Source: Pirellulaceae bacterium
GTDB taxonomy: Bacteria; Planctomycetota; Planctomycetia; Pirellulales; Pirellulaceae
Direction of reading: 5' to 3'
Length of the DNA stretch: 34,602 nt
Assembly (NCBI GenBank): GCA_026989685.1
Contig: JALSIV010000433.1
Span: 1 to 34,602 of the forward strand
Part shown: positions 14,847 through 19,015 of the stretch, piece by piece
Layout: every line of letters begins with the position of its first letter
Position numbering within the stretch: the first letter of the stretch is position 1
The notes under the pieces: model-generated
What the model was told of the DNA's origin: nothing
What the model saw: the letters and a program-made list of their open reading frames with translations, nothing else
Database searches by the model: none
Translations under genes and position numbers: made by a program

Positions 14847-16112
14847 ATGTCGCAACGGATCGGATTCATTGGCACTCGTTTCGCCGGCACCGACGGGGTG
14901 TCGCTCGAAAGCGCGAAGTGGGCCGAAGTGCTGTGGCACCACCAGCATGTCAGCTACTGGTACGGTGGCAAACTCGACCGCAGCCCCGATATCAGCATGG
15001 AGGTTCCTCACGCCTATTTCGGGCATCCCGACAACGTCTGGATCAACGAACGAGTCTTCGGAAAACGCAAACGCAGCCGCGACGTCACTCAGCGGATCTT
15101 TGCCATCACCGAGTATCTCAAGGATACGCTCTATCAGTTCGTCGAGCGTTTCAGCATCGACATCCTGATTGTGGAAAACGCCTTGTGCATTCCCATGAAT
15201 ATCCCGCTCGGCGTCGCACTCACTCACTTCATCGCCGAAACCGGCTTCAACACGATCGCCCACCACCACGACTTCTACTGGGAGCGAGATCGTTTTTCGG
15301 TCAACGCCGTCGGAGACATCCTCTCGATGGCCTTCCCGCCCAGCCTCCCCACGATCCAGCACGTCACCATCAACTCGTTCGCCAACCAGGAACTTTCCCA
15401 CCGCCGCGGCGAGTCGTCTCTGCTGGTCCCCAATGTCCTCAACTTTGAAGCCCCACCCCCTCAGCCGGACGACTACTCCCGCGCCTTCCGGCACGATATC
15501 GGCCTCGAACCGGATGACATCATCTTCCTCCAACCGACTCGCGTGGTTCCCCGCAAGGGAATCGAACATTCGATCGCTCTCGTCGCCCAACTAAAAAACC
15601 CCAAGTGCAAACTGGTCGTCTCGCACGAGGCGGGGGACGAGGGACACGACTACATGATGGCCCTGATGGACATGGCCGAACAAGAAAACGTCGACCTCCG
15701 CTTCATCAGTACCAAAGTGGGCGACATCCGCACCGTGCGCGAAGGAGGCGAACGAACCTACACGCTGGCCGACGCCTACCAACAGGCCGATTTCATCACC
15801 TACCCCAGCATCTACGAAGGATTCGGCAACGCACTGCTCGAGGCCTTCTACTACCGCAAACCCCTGCTGGTCAACCGCTACTCGATCTACGTGGCTGACA
15901 TCGAACCGCTGGGAGCCAAGGTGATCACCATGAACGGCTACATCACCCGCGATATCGTCAAGCAAGTCGAGCGGACGATCGAGGACCCCGAATTCCGCGA
16001 AGAAATGGTCGAACACAATTACGAACTCGGACGCCGTTTCTACAGCTATTCGGTCCTCCGCCGCAAACTCCGGTCCCTCATCACCAACTTCACCGGCGCC
16101 GACGACCTTTGA
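14847..16112 (+). CDS. GT4-type glycosyltransferase, second copy in the solute locus
   Basis: 421-aa retaining GT-B glycosyltransferase. The N-terminus [21 protein letters not shown] resembles sugar-nucleotide enzymes that use a GTDGV acceptor loop. [14 protein letters not shown] is a conserved His/Asp-rich segment. [19 protein letters not shown] opens the donor-binding domain, and the E-x7-E motif is Glu324...Glu332 ([10 protein letters not shown]). It differs clearly from the glycosyltransferase at 12337, so the two are not a recent duplication. It starts 45 nt after the HAD gene. In the planctomycete mannosylglucosylglycerate pathway a mannosyltransferase acts after GpgS; this gene or the one at 12337 is the candidate (inference). 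Confidence 0.86.
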
Positions 16113-16157
16113 TGGCAAGCTGCGGGACAAACGATCAGTTCATCGGCATGACGTTGT

Positions 16158-16205
16158 CAGCCTGGAACAAGATCAGCCTGGAACAAGATGTTGTGCTAGC
16201 ACAAC
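16158..16205. repeat. 16-bp tandem duplication followed by a 16-bp perfect palindrome
   Basis: CAGCCTGGAACAAGAT occurs twice without a gap at 16158-16173 and 16174-16189. Directly after it lies GTTGTGCTAGCACAAC (16190-16205), a perfect palindrome. Both are in the 289-nt gap between the glycosyltransferase and the four-helix-bundle gene. The palindrome could be an operator or a small hairpin. I see nothing else notable in that gap. Confidence 0.8.
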
Positions 16206-16401
16206 GGGATGAAGCACGAAATGTTGTGGGGCCGGCACGTGGCGGTATTGGAAATGGCAGAATACGAGATAGACCGTGGGCACACCGACGGAAATCGGAT
16301 CGCTTGCCGTGACCGCAATTCGCACCGTGGGAGGTTCCAAACCGAACCGGAGTGCGGGCGGCTCCGGACGGTTATTCGCGGATTGGCAGCAGGGTGGTGT
16401 G

Positions 16402-17100
16402 ATGATGAGCGACAATCGAGATCGTTCCAATACTTCAGGGCGCCGCATGTTGGGCGACCGGGCGTGGGATGAACGCGTCCTGCCGCCGCGCGGCGACTAC
16501 CGGAAACTGCTCTCCTTTCAAAAGGCGGAAGTGATCTATGACATCACGTTCCGTTTTGCACAAAAGCACCTGCGGCGCGGCGACCGCACGGTGGACCAGA
16601 TGGTCCAGGCTGCCCGTTCGGGAAAGAAGAACATCCTGGAAGGAAGCAAAGCAGGTACGACGTCGAAGGAGATGGAGATCAAACTGACCAACGTGGCTCG
16701 CGCGAGCCTGGAAGAATTGCTGGACGACTATCTCGATTACCTCAGGGCCCGCGACCTGCGAATCTGGGAACCGGATTCCCGCGAGGCACTTTATGTCCGT
16801 GAGCTGGGATGCAGAACGCCCCAATCTTACGAATTGTACCGCGAGTTCGTCGAGACACGGTCTGCCGAAGTCGTCGCCAATATCGCGATCTGCCTGGTAA
16901 ATCAGGCCAACTATCTGATCGACCGGCAACTTCGCCGGTTGGAAGAGGATTTCCTCAAGGAAGGCGGTTTGCGCGAACGAATGACGCGGCTGCGACGGAA
17001 AAGGAGGGAGGGCAATTGCGGGGGTGGGAAGTACGGGAATGGGAGCGATGGGACGGATGGGAACGATGGGACCGAAGATTCCACCAACAGAGCGATATAG
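16402..17100 (+). CDS. Four-helix-bundle (S23/IVP-like) protein with C-terminal suffix region
   Basis: 232-aa protein related to the S23/intervening-sequence four-helix-bundle family. ATG 16402 follows AGGGTGG at a suitable distance; the longer in-frame start at 16276 lacks support. Residues about 30-130 hold the helical core: LLSFQKAEVIYDITFRFA, then RRGDRTVDQMVQAARS, GKKNILEGSKAGTTSKEM and ANVARASLEELLDDYLDYL-type helices. A further helical segment (about 130-195) corresponds to the suffix region found in longer family members. The last 30 residues are Gly/Asp/Asn-rich low complexity, encoded by a 9-bp DNA period. Function is unknown; relatives include IVS-encoded 23S proteins and retroelement accessory proteins, but no reverse transcriptase or rRNA is nearby. 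It looks like an insertion between solute genes. Confidence 0.82.
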   Translation: MMSDNRDRSNTSGRRMLGDRAWDERVLPPRGDYRKLLSFQKAEVIYDITFRFAQKHLRRGDRTVDQMVQAARSGKKNILEGSKAGTTSKEMEIKLTNVARASLEELLDDYLDYLRARDLRIWEPDSREALYVRELGCRTPQSYELYREFVETRSAEVVANIAICLVNQANYLIDRQLRRLEEDFLKEGGLRERMTRLRRKRREGNCGGGKYGNGSDGTDGNDGTEDSTNRAI

Positions 17101-17157
17101 GAGCGTTCACGCGATTGCCGTTGATCTCACCGGTCCCATGCCTCCCATCATTCCCAT
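17041..17157. repeat. 9-bp-period repeat and matching downstream inverted repeat
   Basis: Four units of the form GGGAnCGAT or GGGACnGAn run from 17041 to 17076 at the 3' end of the four-helix-bundle gene. After the stop codon, the complementary sense (GGTCCCAT at 17132, CCTCCCATCATTCCCAT at 17141-17157) forms an imperfect inverted repeat with them. About 17 nt pair with three mismatches around a loop of roughly 60 nt that contains the stop codon. It may be a terminator-like structure or a mobile-repeat remnant. Confidence 0.65.
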
Positions 17158-17299
17158 AGCTCTTCCCCAAAGTCGGCAGGCTCCCGTTTGCGCTGCCCCT
17201 TGCCAGTTTCCGGCTCCTCCCCGTACATTGGCGGACTGATGAATGGAGCGAGCCGGATTTGGATGCCACGACGCGATCTCAGGGGGAAATGGAGCCTTC

Positions 17300-19015
17300 A
17301 TGCTAAGCGGAGAATTGCGGGAGCGCTTGAGACACCATCTTGAGAGGATCTATCCGAGTCGAACCGAACTCGCGTTGGAGAAGGTCCTGAATGTCTGCCG
17401 GCCGATCTCCAGGTCGCCGGCGGACGCACTTTGGAGTGAACGCGACACGCTACTGATCACCTACGGCGACCAGATCCGCGGTCCCGGCGGCGCTCGGCCG
17501 CTCGAGTTGCTCGAGCGCTGGCTTCGCTCGGAAGGACTCGAGCAGGCGTTTTCATTGGTACATCTGCTTCCGTTTTTTCCCTATTCGTCGGATGACGGGT
17601 TTTCCGTGATCGACTATCGGCAGGTCGACCCGGCACTGGGGAACTGGGACGACGTGAGCCGCCTCGCGGCAACGTTCGACTTGATGTTCGATCTGGTGCT
17701 CAATCATGTATCGCAGCGAAGCGATTGGTTCCAAGGCTACCTCCGCGGCGATCCTCGTTTCGCGGATTGGTTCATCGAGGCCGATCCGGCAGATGATCTT
17801 TCGCGGGTGGTCAGACCGCGTAGTCTCCCCTTGCTGACTCGCGTCGAAACGACTCGCGGACCTCGCCACGTCTGGACCACTTTCAGTCCCGACCAGATCG
17901 ATCTGAACTACCGCACCCCCGATGTGCTGGCGGAGATGATCGACATCCTGCTGCTGTACGTGGAGAAAGGTGCCCGTATCATCCGGCTCGATGCAATCGC
18001 CTATCTATGGAAGGAACTGGGGACGAGCTGCATTCATCTGCCGCAAACGCACGAAATCGTCAAGTTGATGCGGACGGTACTGGATGCTTGTGCCGGTGGA
18101 ACACTGCTACTGACGGAGACGAACGTGCCTCATCAGGAGAACATCTCCTATTTCGGCAACGGCGATGAGGCTCACATGGTTTACCAGTTCAGCTTGCCGC
18201 CACTGCTACTGGACGGACTGCTCCACGGTGACGCCACATTTCTTCGCCGTTGGTTGGCGGATCTGGAACCGCCGGCTCCCGCCACCACGTTTTTGAACTT
18301 CACGGCATCTCATGACGGTATCGGCGTGCGGCCCTTGGAGGGCATTGTGCCCCCGGCGCGATTCGATGCACTGGTGACCGAAGTGCGCGGGCGCGGCGGG
18401 AGGGTCAGCACGCGGCGGCAGCCCGATGGTTCCGACTCGCCGTACGAACTCAATATCACCTACCTGGACGCCGTCCGAGATCGGGAGGCGAAGGGGTTTC
18501 GCCAGCAGCTGCGGCCGTTCTTGACTTCGCAAGCCGTGATGCTGGCGCTGCGGGGAATCCCGGCCGTCTATTTTCACAGCCTGGTGGGGACGCCCAACGA
18601 TCTCGAGGGCGTCCGGCAGTCGGGTCAACCCAGACGCATCAATCGACATAAGTACGACTGGGGTGAATTGGAGCGGGCTTTGGAATCGGACAACGCGGCT
18701 CAAGGTTGGCTGTTTCGCCAGTATCGCCACATGTTGCAGGTACGGCGCAGCCAGCCCGCATTCCATCCCGACGCCGGCCAGCGCGTCGTCGAGCTGGCCA
18801 GTCCGGCCGTGCTGGCCGTGGTCCGCGGCGAAGAGACGGGAAGCCCGGTTTGCCTGCTCGCCAATCTGGGGCGGCAGCCGGTGACAGTTTCGGCACACGA
18901 ATTGCCGCTGTTGACGTCTTGCACGATGGACTGCCTTTCCGGGCAGCCGGTGATCAACGAAGATGACTCGTTGACTCTGTCGGCACACCAGACCCTCTGG
19001 CTCACCGGTGGTTGA
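17300..19015 (+). CDS. GH13_18-type sugar phosphorylase (probable glucosylglycerate phosphorylase)
   Basis: Alpha-amylase-superfamily enzyme of the sucrose-phosphorylase subfamily (571 aa). ATG 17300 is chosen because GGAG lies 9 nt upstream; ATG 17243 would add 19 unsupported residues. The catalytic set is complete: nucleophile Asp231 in RLDAIAY, acid/base Glu273 in LLTETNVPHQ, and transition-state Asp339 in TASHDGIGVRPLEG. VHLLPFFPYSSDDGFSV, GTPNDLEGV and RRINRHKYDW are typical of this subfamily. It has no signal peptide, so it is intracellular. GH13_18 includes sucrose phosphorylase and glucosylglycerate phosphorylase. The GpgS-like gene begins 62 nt downstream, which favours reversible phosphorolysis of glucosylglycerate, that is solute recycling; sucrose phosphorylase is the alternative. 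Confidence 0.88.
   Translation: MLSGELRERLRHHLERIYPSRTELALEKVLNVCRPISRSPADALWSERDTLLITYGDQIRGPGGARPLELLERWLRSEGLEQAFSLVHLLPFFPYSSDDGFSVIDYRQVDPALGNWDDVSRLAATFDLMFDLVLNHVSQRSDWFQGYLRGDPRFADWFIEADPADDLSRVVRPRSLPLLTRVETTRGPRHVWTTFSPDQIDLNYRTPDVLAEMIDILLLYVEKGARIIRLDAIAYLWKELGTSCIHLPQTHEIVKLMRTVLDACAGGTLLLTETNVPHQENISYFGNGDEAHMVYQFSLPPLLLDGLLHGDATFLRRWLADLEPPAPATTFLNFTASHDGIGVRPLEGIVPPARFDALVTEVRGRGGRVSTRRQPDGSDSPYELNITYLDAVRDREAKGFRQQLRPFLTSQAVMLALRGIPAVYFHSLVGTPNDLEGVRQSGQPRRINRHKYDWGELERALESDNAAQGWLFRQYRHMLQVRRSQPAFHPDAGQRVVELASPAVLAVVRGEETGSPVCLLANLGRQPVTVSAHELPLLTSCTMDCLSGQPVINEDDSLTLSAHQTLWLTGG

Follow-up and report, generated by a model that had tools for sequence, protein, structure and literature searches.

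A four-helix-bundle gene with foldback arrays of short tandem repeats in a Pirellulaceae bacterium: a candidate two-part selfish repeat system

One contig of a Pirellulaceae bacterium (GenBank JALSIV010000433.1, assembly GCA_026989685.1; positions 1–34,602 of the forward strand, this whole 34,602-nt stretch being referred to here as the window) carries a four-helix-bundle (4HB) gene of the ‘4helix_suffix’ subfamily, the 3′ end of which is a 9-bp tandem array that closes a hairpin with DNA beyond the stop codon. Comparison with other loci shows a shared anatomy, a repeat period that follows the protein subfamily, covariation of repeat motif and protein, dispersal of arrays through genomes, and filled and empty sites. 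Gene and hairpin array are probably best read as a two-part selfish repeat system, consisting of an S23/Avd-like protein and foldback arrays, and the comparison points to a widespread family of small genes, often set within their own tandem repeats, as an undescribed kind of selfish or mobile bacterial DNA. From these patterns we infer that the protein binds the arrays, that solo arrays spread in trans and that a joining enzyme takes part.

The window gene and its hairpin array

16402–17100, + strand: 4HB gene, 4helix_suffix subfamily, 232 aa (profile matches and structure model)
17034–17083, + strand: 9-bp tandem array, units ATGGGAGCG ATGGGACGG ATGGGAACG ATGGGACCG, encoding the C-terminal tail (Tandem Repeats Finder, TRF; period scoring)
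17125–17162, + strand: complementary arm past the stop, GGTCCCATG CCTCCCATC ATTCCCAT, closing the hairpin with the array (inverted repeats I1, I2 and I8; predicted fold)

The open reading frame runs from an ATG at 16402 to a stop at 17098–17100, in a frame already open from a GTG at 16276. The protein scores above the curated cut-offs of TIGR04258 (‘4helix_suffix’; E 1.4e-22, 79.3 bits, cut-off 40) and TIGR02436 (E 9.5e-7, 29 bits, cut-off 24), both of which are matched by all 50 aligned members at E 0.001, and under that of Pfam PF05635 (25.4 bits, cut-off 33.8). A structure model (m024c41da0c95, residues 29–209; predicted local distance difference test score, pLDDT, 89.7) starts with three long helices; after a loop region containing two short ones come a fourth long helix (127–159) and a final one (162–177). 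Because TIGR04258 spans residues 127–174 of the modelled fragment, the ‘suffix’ corresponds to bundle helix 4 plus the C-terminal helix. Among solved structures the closest folds belong to the S23 family (2gsc, Z 16.2 over 113 residues; 2rld, Z 13.9), followed by Avd of diversity-generating retroelements (8ub8, Z 12.5; 4dwl, Z 11.8; root-mean-square deviation 2.3 over 109 residues), level with which lies an unrelated bundle at Z 12.2. This S23/Avd kinship is read solely from VIA-align Z, Foldseek with the same model giving no match at E ≤ 0.001.

TRF calls the array at 17039–17075 (score 53). Its top 27-nt period-9 score is 22, compared with a maximum of 19 in 60 first-order simulations of the whole window, and no score of 19 occurs anywhere else in the window. 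The arms 17039–17071 and 17125–17157 are 79% complementary (93% over a 15-nt core), and the predicted RNA fold consists of short helices split by 2–3-nt internal loops (−50.0 kcal/mol, a figure without shuffle control). TRF array, inverted-repeat arms and predicted fold together bear out the first-pass annotation, which had described a 9-bp-period 3′ end with a partial complement past the stop. In the window the hairpin covers the 3′ end of the gene and DNA beyond it rather than both sides of the gene; copies elsewhere have arrays upstream of the gene too, and in the loop that precedes helix 4.

Repeat period, motif and dispersal across loci

TIGR04258 occurs in 9 of the 60 relatives examined and, across the phylum, in 30 of 392 genomes. 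A first suffix set comprised 62 loci from these relatives and phylum genomes (64 matches, two without a stretch left out) and a second 81 loci, namely 80 loci from public genomes, the best out of at least 558, plus a single viral contig. Labels in the second set include Verrucomicrobia, Planctomycetes, Bacteroidetes, Chlorobi, Desulfuromonadales and other groups. Metagenome-assembled genomes supply many of the loci, and their host names may be wrong. At least two contigs are shared between the sets (L172 with G001:C27, L208 with G016:C170). Plain 4HB genes (PF05635 without the suffix) served as control, with 32 loci from the window’s own genome and relatives and 18 plasmid loci (15 cyanobacterial, one each from Gemmatirosa, Azospirillum and Riemerella; 18 of 25 records, without H9, H11, H19, H22, H24, H25 and H26). 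The array threshold, 20/27, was chosen after view of the first suffix set; the second suffix, plain and plasmid sets came later.

With periods 5–24 scored, only 9 and its multiple 18 stand out at suffix loci. Period 9 reaches the threshold at 31/62 and 45/81 suffix loci (76/143 overall), against 5/81 and 7/132 distal stretches of the same loci. At plain loci it never does so (0/32 and 0/18; 0/50 combined), and period 7 takes its place, in 20 of the 32 loci and in 13 of the 18 on plasmids (distal stretches 5/36), or 33/50 combined (Fisher p 2e-21 for this split). Suffix loci reach the threshold at period 7 in 5/62 and 4/81 cases and their distal controls in 3/81 and 6/132; distal period-7 controls thus come from the suffix and plasmid loci. 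Both kinds of gene coexist in G000, G001, G016 and G022, where suffix genes keep period 9 and plain genes period 7. Codon periodicity was rejected as the cause because period 12 is rare (48 matches vs 549 at period 9 in nine hand-picked array-rich genomes) and a 7-bp unit does not make a whole number of codons; a low-complexity tail as the sole explanation was ruled out, since scattered arrays and motif tests confined to the flanks show the same pattern.

Arrays at suffix loci are found before the gene, in frame ahead of the fourth helix, or after the suffix, with unit cores that vary by locus (ATGGGAC, ATAGGAC, AAGGGAC, GTGGAC or ATGGAC, GATCGGAC, GTCRGACAG). The proposed check, whether other copies of the gene are followed by the same repeat, came out positive in part: copies from several phyla have period-9 arrays far above control stretches, but each locus has its own unit and shares only the period. 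Motif similarity, taken from DNA outside the bundle–suffix region, tracks protein identity (r 0.41; 0.378 between phyla only; 0/300 permutations) in a Mantel test on 97 of the 139 loci that remained of 143 once identical suffixes were merged. Complementarity between the upstream and downstream flanks is seen in 34/44 plain loci (mismatched pairs 4/132; L002, L003, L274, L278, L285 and L287 were left out of this test) and in 31/141 suffix loci (mismatched pairs 6/423). Direct likeness of the two flanks, seen in 40/141 suffix loci, is expected wherever whole hairpins stand on both sides.

Some loci depart from the common anatomy. L072, L065 and L076 have both hairpin arms in frame within the gene, before the fourth helix. 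L009, L010 and L015 combine suffix proteins of GGYSEQLA/GGYTEQLA type and GATC-containing arrays with a C-terminal extension showing a CPxCG...GCxxYPxCKG pattern, which we take to be like a topoisomerase zinc ribbon. An Rfam scan of 10 loci gave no match at an array, only two tRNAs and one DUF3800-VI RNA (RF02915; L061 3138–3189, ~0.5 kb upstream of the first array of the second suffix gene).

Arrays also occur away from the genes. The window’s own genome has 13 zero-mismatch matches to GGAC-core arrays on 4 contigs, so that the repeat does recur elsewhere in the genome as the first-pass annotation had asked, although in similar form: the solo units (ATRGGAC or GTGGAC) are near, not identical to, the ATGGGA of the window. 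A heptamer pattern, TYTGARA, matches the same genome 120 times across at least 13 contigs (reversed control 0), and the plain 4HB genes of that genome on C37 and C167 bear this heptamer. A search of 80 genomes for GGACN5 ×4 (≤1 mismatch, matches beside genes counted) gave a mean of 19.6 and a median of 6 matches in 37 genomes with a suffix gene, spread over the phylum, compared with a mean of 1.35 and a median of 1 in 43 without, drawn from the window’s family and order only. Pattern and reversed-pattern totals were 727 vs 205 in the former and 58 vs 144 in the latter, and the difference between the two groups, set against the reversed pattern, has p 1.4e-4 (1.8e-4 within the window’s family). 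In G152 nearly all the matches listed fall at one locus.

G028 has a single suffix gene; the 75 matches in this genome resolve into 38 arrays at 30 sites, and the gene’s motif (AAR code) is present in 35/38 of these, two of them adjoining the gene. Beyond the fixed GGAC the unit has five positions; two of them vary almost at random (1.86 and 1.76 bits) and another two hardly vary (0.48 and 0.10 bits). Paired arms are ordered GGAC then GTCC in 13/13 pairs across several genomes and 7/7 in G028 (overlapping sets; the G028 data were taken from a first 33 hand-picked arrays and then repeated on all 75 matches). Scattered palindromes with the gene’s flanking repeat, as in repetitive extragenic palindromic (REP)/RAYT systems, are thus present, best seen in G028. 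Several arrays are, by eye, hairpins between genes or directly after a stop. At L083, in the window’s own genome, a ~95-bp stretch lies once outside and once inside a solo-array hairpin (by eye).

Filled and empty sites, proposed mechanism and rival explanations

14847–16112, + strand: left-hand neighbour, a glycosyltransferase resembling mannosylglucosylglycerate synthase; one border of the empty site in relatives
16113–16401, no strand: spacer from the glycosyltransferase stop to the 4HB gene; no alignment with the gap of the same-genus relative (repeat and alignment scans)
17243–19015, + strand: right-hand neighbour, a sucrose-phosphorylase-like protein; the other border of the empty site in relatives

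Neighbouring genes resemble mannosylglucosylglycerate synthase, sucrose phosphorylase and glucosyl-3-phosphoglycerate synthase, each under curated cut-offs, which agrees with the placing of the 4HB gene in a solute locus by the first-pass annotation; the insertion site is not a 23S rRNA helix, the gene sitting between two sugar-metabolism genes. In G001, of the same genus, a glycosyltransferase gene (protein 97% identical) is followed after a gap of a few hundred bases by the sucrose-phosphorylase gene, with no 4HB gene. The two neighbours adjoin in this way in all seven relatives that have both within the examined stretch (G001, G005, G010, G012, G024, G041 and G057); the position is not conserved, and these relatives lack the gene at this locus, which the first-pass annotation had proposed to check. 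By eye, the G001 gap contains a short one-armed 9-bp-period stretch (GTCCCATGG GTCCTATTG GTCTTATCC ATCCCA), which may be a remnant or a separate array. No target-site duplication could be read in the comparison with G001, and the arms 16113–16133/17185–17205 were rejected as insert ends, since they do not exceed chance (pairs of comparable score occur elsewhere in the region) and alignment with the G001 gap fails at these positions. The spacer includes an exact 16-bp tandem duplication (16157–16188; unit TCAGCCTGGAACAAGA); a similar GTCAGCCT/AGGCTGAC core was noted by eye in the G001 gap and in L007 and is perhaps another scattered repeat.

Solo arrays have empty counterparts as well. Eight own-genome arrays were traced by their flanks in G001 and five were compared (L079, L083 and L095 left out); all five are absent from the matching stretches, which have period-9 scores of 11–15 vs 21–27 and no GGAC pattern. 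Both flanks were located for L084, L091, L094 and L103 and one for L086. Gene order near L086 and L091 is rearranged between G001:C88 and G000:C435, as if these arrays were sited at rearrangement points. The clearest filled/empty case is a pair of Nostoc plasmids, pC052_D and pNsp_c, with flanks 89–99.7% identical, each carrying a 4HB gene framed by heptamer arrays. The inserts occupy two different junctions beside WP_104899637, each plasmid being empty where the other is filled. At both junctions the insert starts with an array on the left; its right end is at an array in one and ~40 bases beyond in the other, where 3 bp (ATG) are possibly duplicated. Other plain copies lie between nrdB and nrdA, between cas6 and cas4, and between cas10/cmr2 and cmr3.

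Unit number changes too, as had been anticipated for the periodic segment. Two G022 copies, separated by 2.4 kb, share 99.45% identity across an aligned 1.8 kb with one mismatch; the N-terminal array comprises 11 units of 9 bp in one and 12 in the other, and the open frames differ by 3 aa.

Three further observations concern vehicles and surroundings. L302, L304 and L306 are plain 4HB genes of plasmids classed as conjugative. L302 is two genes ahead of TrbI/VirB10, and across the compared stretch it is 97% identical to L306. A phage vehicle was rejected: 118 pattern matches yielded one IMG/VR locus and no phage record. At L142 (3926–6421) a GIY-YIG domain is in frame within an HsdR-like restriction protein, with PEPVEG repeats on both sides (by eye).

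We propose that the bundle protein would recognise its cognate repeat unit in folded, single-stranded form, either RNA or lagging-strand DNA, and would read unit length, 9 nt in suffix-type and 7 nt in plain proteins. The constant core of the unit could form a stem and the 2–3 variable nucleotides could fall in internal loops; the Xanthomonas S23 protein, described as a five-bundle ring (PMC4990558), suggests that each protomer might accommodate one unit. Array–gene–array units insert at gene and operon junctions, and solo arrays of the same motif would be spread or maintained in trans by the protein, as REPINs rely on RAYT. The copying or integrating enzyme is not part of the unit and would be supplied by the host or in trans. 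In the window the copy retains the gene and 3′ hairpin only, and it may be a decayed or partial unit. For a broader proposal we put the chances at about even: a bacterial class of mobile DNA that has a small helical-bundle protein, in which no catalytic domain was seen, as the ruler of its repeat (subfamily setting 7 or 9 nt, clade setting the core motif). This class would explain the heptamer arrays of cyanobacteria, Xanthomonas and others, and the intervening sequences (IVSs) of rRNA would form one branch of it.

Catalogues list short tandem arrays that lie between bacterial genes and have no known maker; if each array type has a cognate 4HB protein, array origin becomes directly testable. 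A common gene labelled ‘four helix bundle protein’ or ‘S23 ribosomal protein’ would then gain a function, and DNA would be spread by a binding protein with borrowed enzymes. The rule of seven versus nine suggests that repeat length is read by the bundle protein, which would be a new way of recognising nucleic acids, and a programmable protein–repeat pair may be a possible product of the system.

Several results weigh against a selfish system of gene and array. Because the spacer holds no 9-bp array, the window copy lacks the upstream array known from many other copies and has the 3′ hairpin alone, and movement is seen through its results, the filled and empty sites, from which it is itself deduced. 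The gene has no catalytic domain, Pfam matching only 23S_rRNA_IVP and NCBIfam only TIGR04258 and TIGR02436 (E 0.001), and suffix genes have no conserved neighbour, the most shared family (type I restriction-modification, R-M) being found at 13/81 loci. Period 9 stays under the threshold at 67/143 suffix loci, and G023 and G024 hold both kinds of gene, yet their plain copies examined show no 7-bp array. Shared descent of gene and array as one travelling unit would equally give the link between motif and protein. Dispersal is uneven: 10/37 gene-bearing genomes have no GGACN5 ×4 match, the reversed pattern is equal or commoner in 13/37, G009 has 15 matches without a suffix gene, and in the window’s own genome the GGAC pattern at ≤2 mismatches gives 68 matches against 38 for the reversed control. 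In the parts of PMC4692102 that we draw on, heptamers are absent from the plasmids of Nostoc PCC 7120 and few are paired, and Xanthomonas heptamers are mostly between the same genes in two species; that they mostly keep their place speaks against fast turnover in Xanthomonas.

An unlikely alternative is that the arrays arise by slippage and recombine easily, the 4HB gene being carried between them without acting on them. It would fit a gene with no enzyme domain, genes without arrays, and arrays that gain and lose units, but leaves unexplained the split between 9 bp at suffix and 7 bp at plain genes, the similarity of motif and protein across phyla, the genome-wide recurrence of the gene’s motif in the arrays of G028, and the contrast between fixed and nearly random unit positions. 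Host regulation, with the protein as an RNA-binding regulator and the hairpins as target sites or terminators, would suit those arrays that appear as hairpins between genes or directly after a stop; we consider it quite improbable, given that the five own-genome arrays compared are all missing at the matching places in the same-genus relative, that neighbours vary between loci and that some 4HB genes are lodged between the genes of an operon. Retention of the gene as an accessory of R-M or CRISPR operons seems similarly doubtful. Type I R-M genes are in the flanks of 14/81 suffix loci, with HsdM directly upstream in several, and 3/18 plasmid plain copies are within CRISPR operons; against this, 67/81 loci have no R-M match in the flanks examined, the three proteins compared match no PADLOC family, the window copy is among solute genes, and defence islands gather mobile DNA too.

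Comparison with known systems

The system that we favour, a bundle protein with its own foldback arrays, shares its protein family with the 23S rRNA IVSs, in which the S23 open reading frame is likewise between complementary arms and whose patchy distribution suggests horizontal transfer (PMC4990558, as far as drawn on here). Unlike an IVS, the gene here is outside rRNA, its arms are 7- or 9-bp tandem arrays, and solo arrays are scattered through the genome. RAYT genes are flanked by REPs. REP elements and REPINs with RAYT (TnpA-REP) are scattered palindromic elements linked to a resident protein gene in the accounts used here (PMC3116915, PMC8266576). In contrast to these, no HUH (Y1) transposase was found in the window gene in Pfam and NCBIfam scans (E 0.001), and the units are tandem n-mers with a period set by protein subfamily.

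The short tandemly repeated repetitive (STRR) sequences of cyanobacteria are also heptanucleotide arrays. The portions of PMC4692102 and PMC4679880 consulted describe heptamer arrays in Xanthomonas (GGGANTN), Nostoc (GGGGA(C/T)T), Beggiatoaceae (TAACTGA) and others, intergenic and with fixed and free unit positions, with 70 convergent pairs in Xcc and 75 in Xac; ‘four helix’ and ‘S23’ were not found in their main texts. Plain 4HB genes set in 7-bp arrays occur on plasmids of Nostoc and further cyanobacteria, a likeness to the published heptamers, and Xcc0516 (2gsc) is a 4HB protein of X. campestris, a candidate link to the Xanthomonas arrays through the host only. No literature tying 4HB/S23 genes to tandem arrays was recognised in a search with most subscription journals outside it, which is no proof of novelty.

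Avd resembles the window protein in fold, at Z values (12.5 and 11.8) level with that of an unrelated bundle (12.2), and the likeness of PF05635 to Avd is noted in the part of PMC10053308 seen. Unlike for Avd, no recurrent partner gene was seen beside the suffix genes (at most 13/81 loci per family among the neighbours identified), with no search aimed at reverse transcriptases. The DRT10 reverse transcriptase is described, in the part of PMC12632851 used here, as making 9-nt tandem-repeat cDNA from an RNA template. By analogy, DRT10-like synthesis is a possible route to the arrays, although two unit positions vary freely here, unlike in DRT10; the Pfam and NCBIfam matches of the window gene include no reverse transcriptase, again with no search aimed at them. 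A further resemblance is to eukaryotic foldback transposons, which have inverted ends made of short tandem repeats. The present units share such ends, but are bacterial, a few hundred bp long and associated with an unrelated protein.
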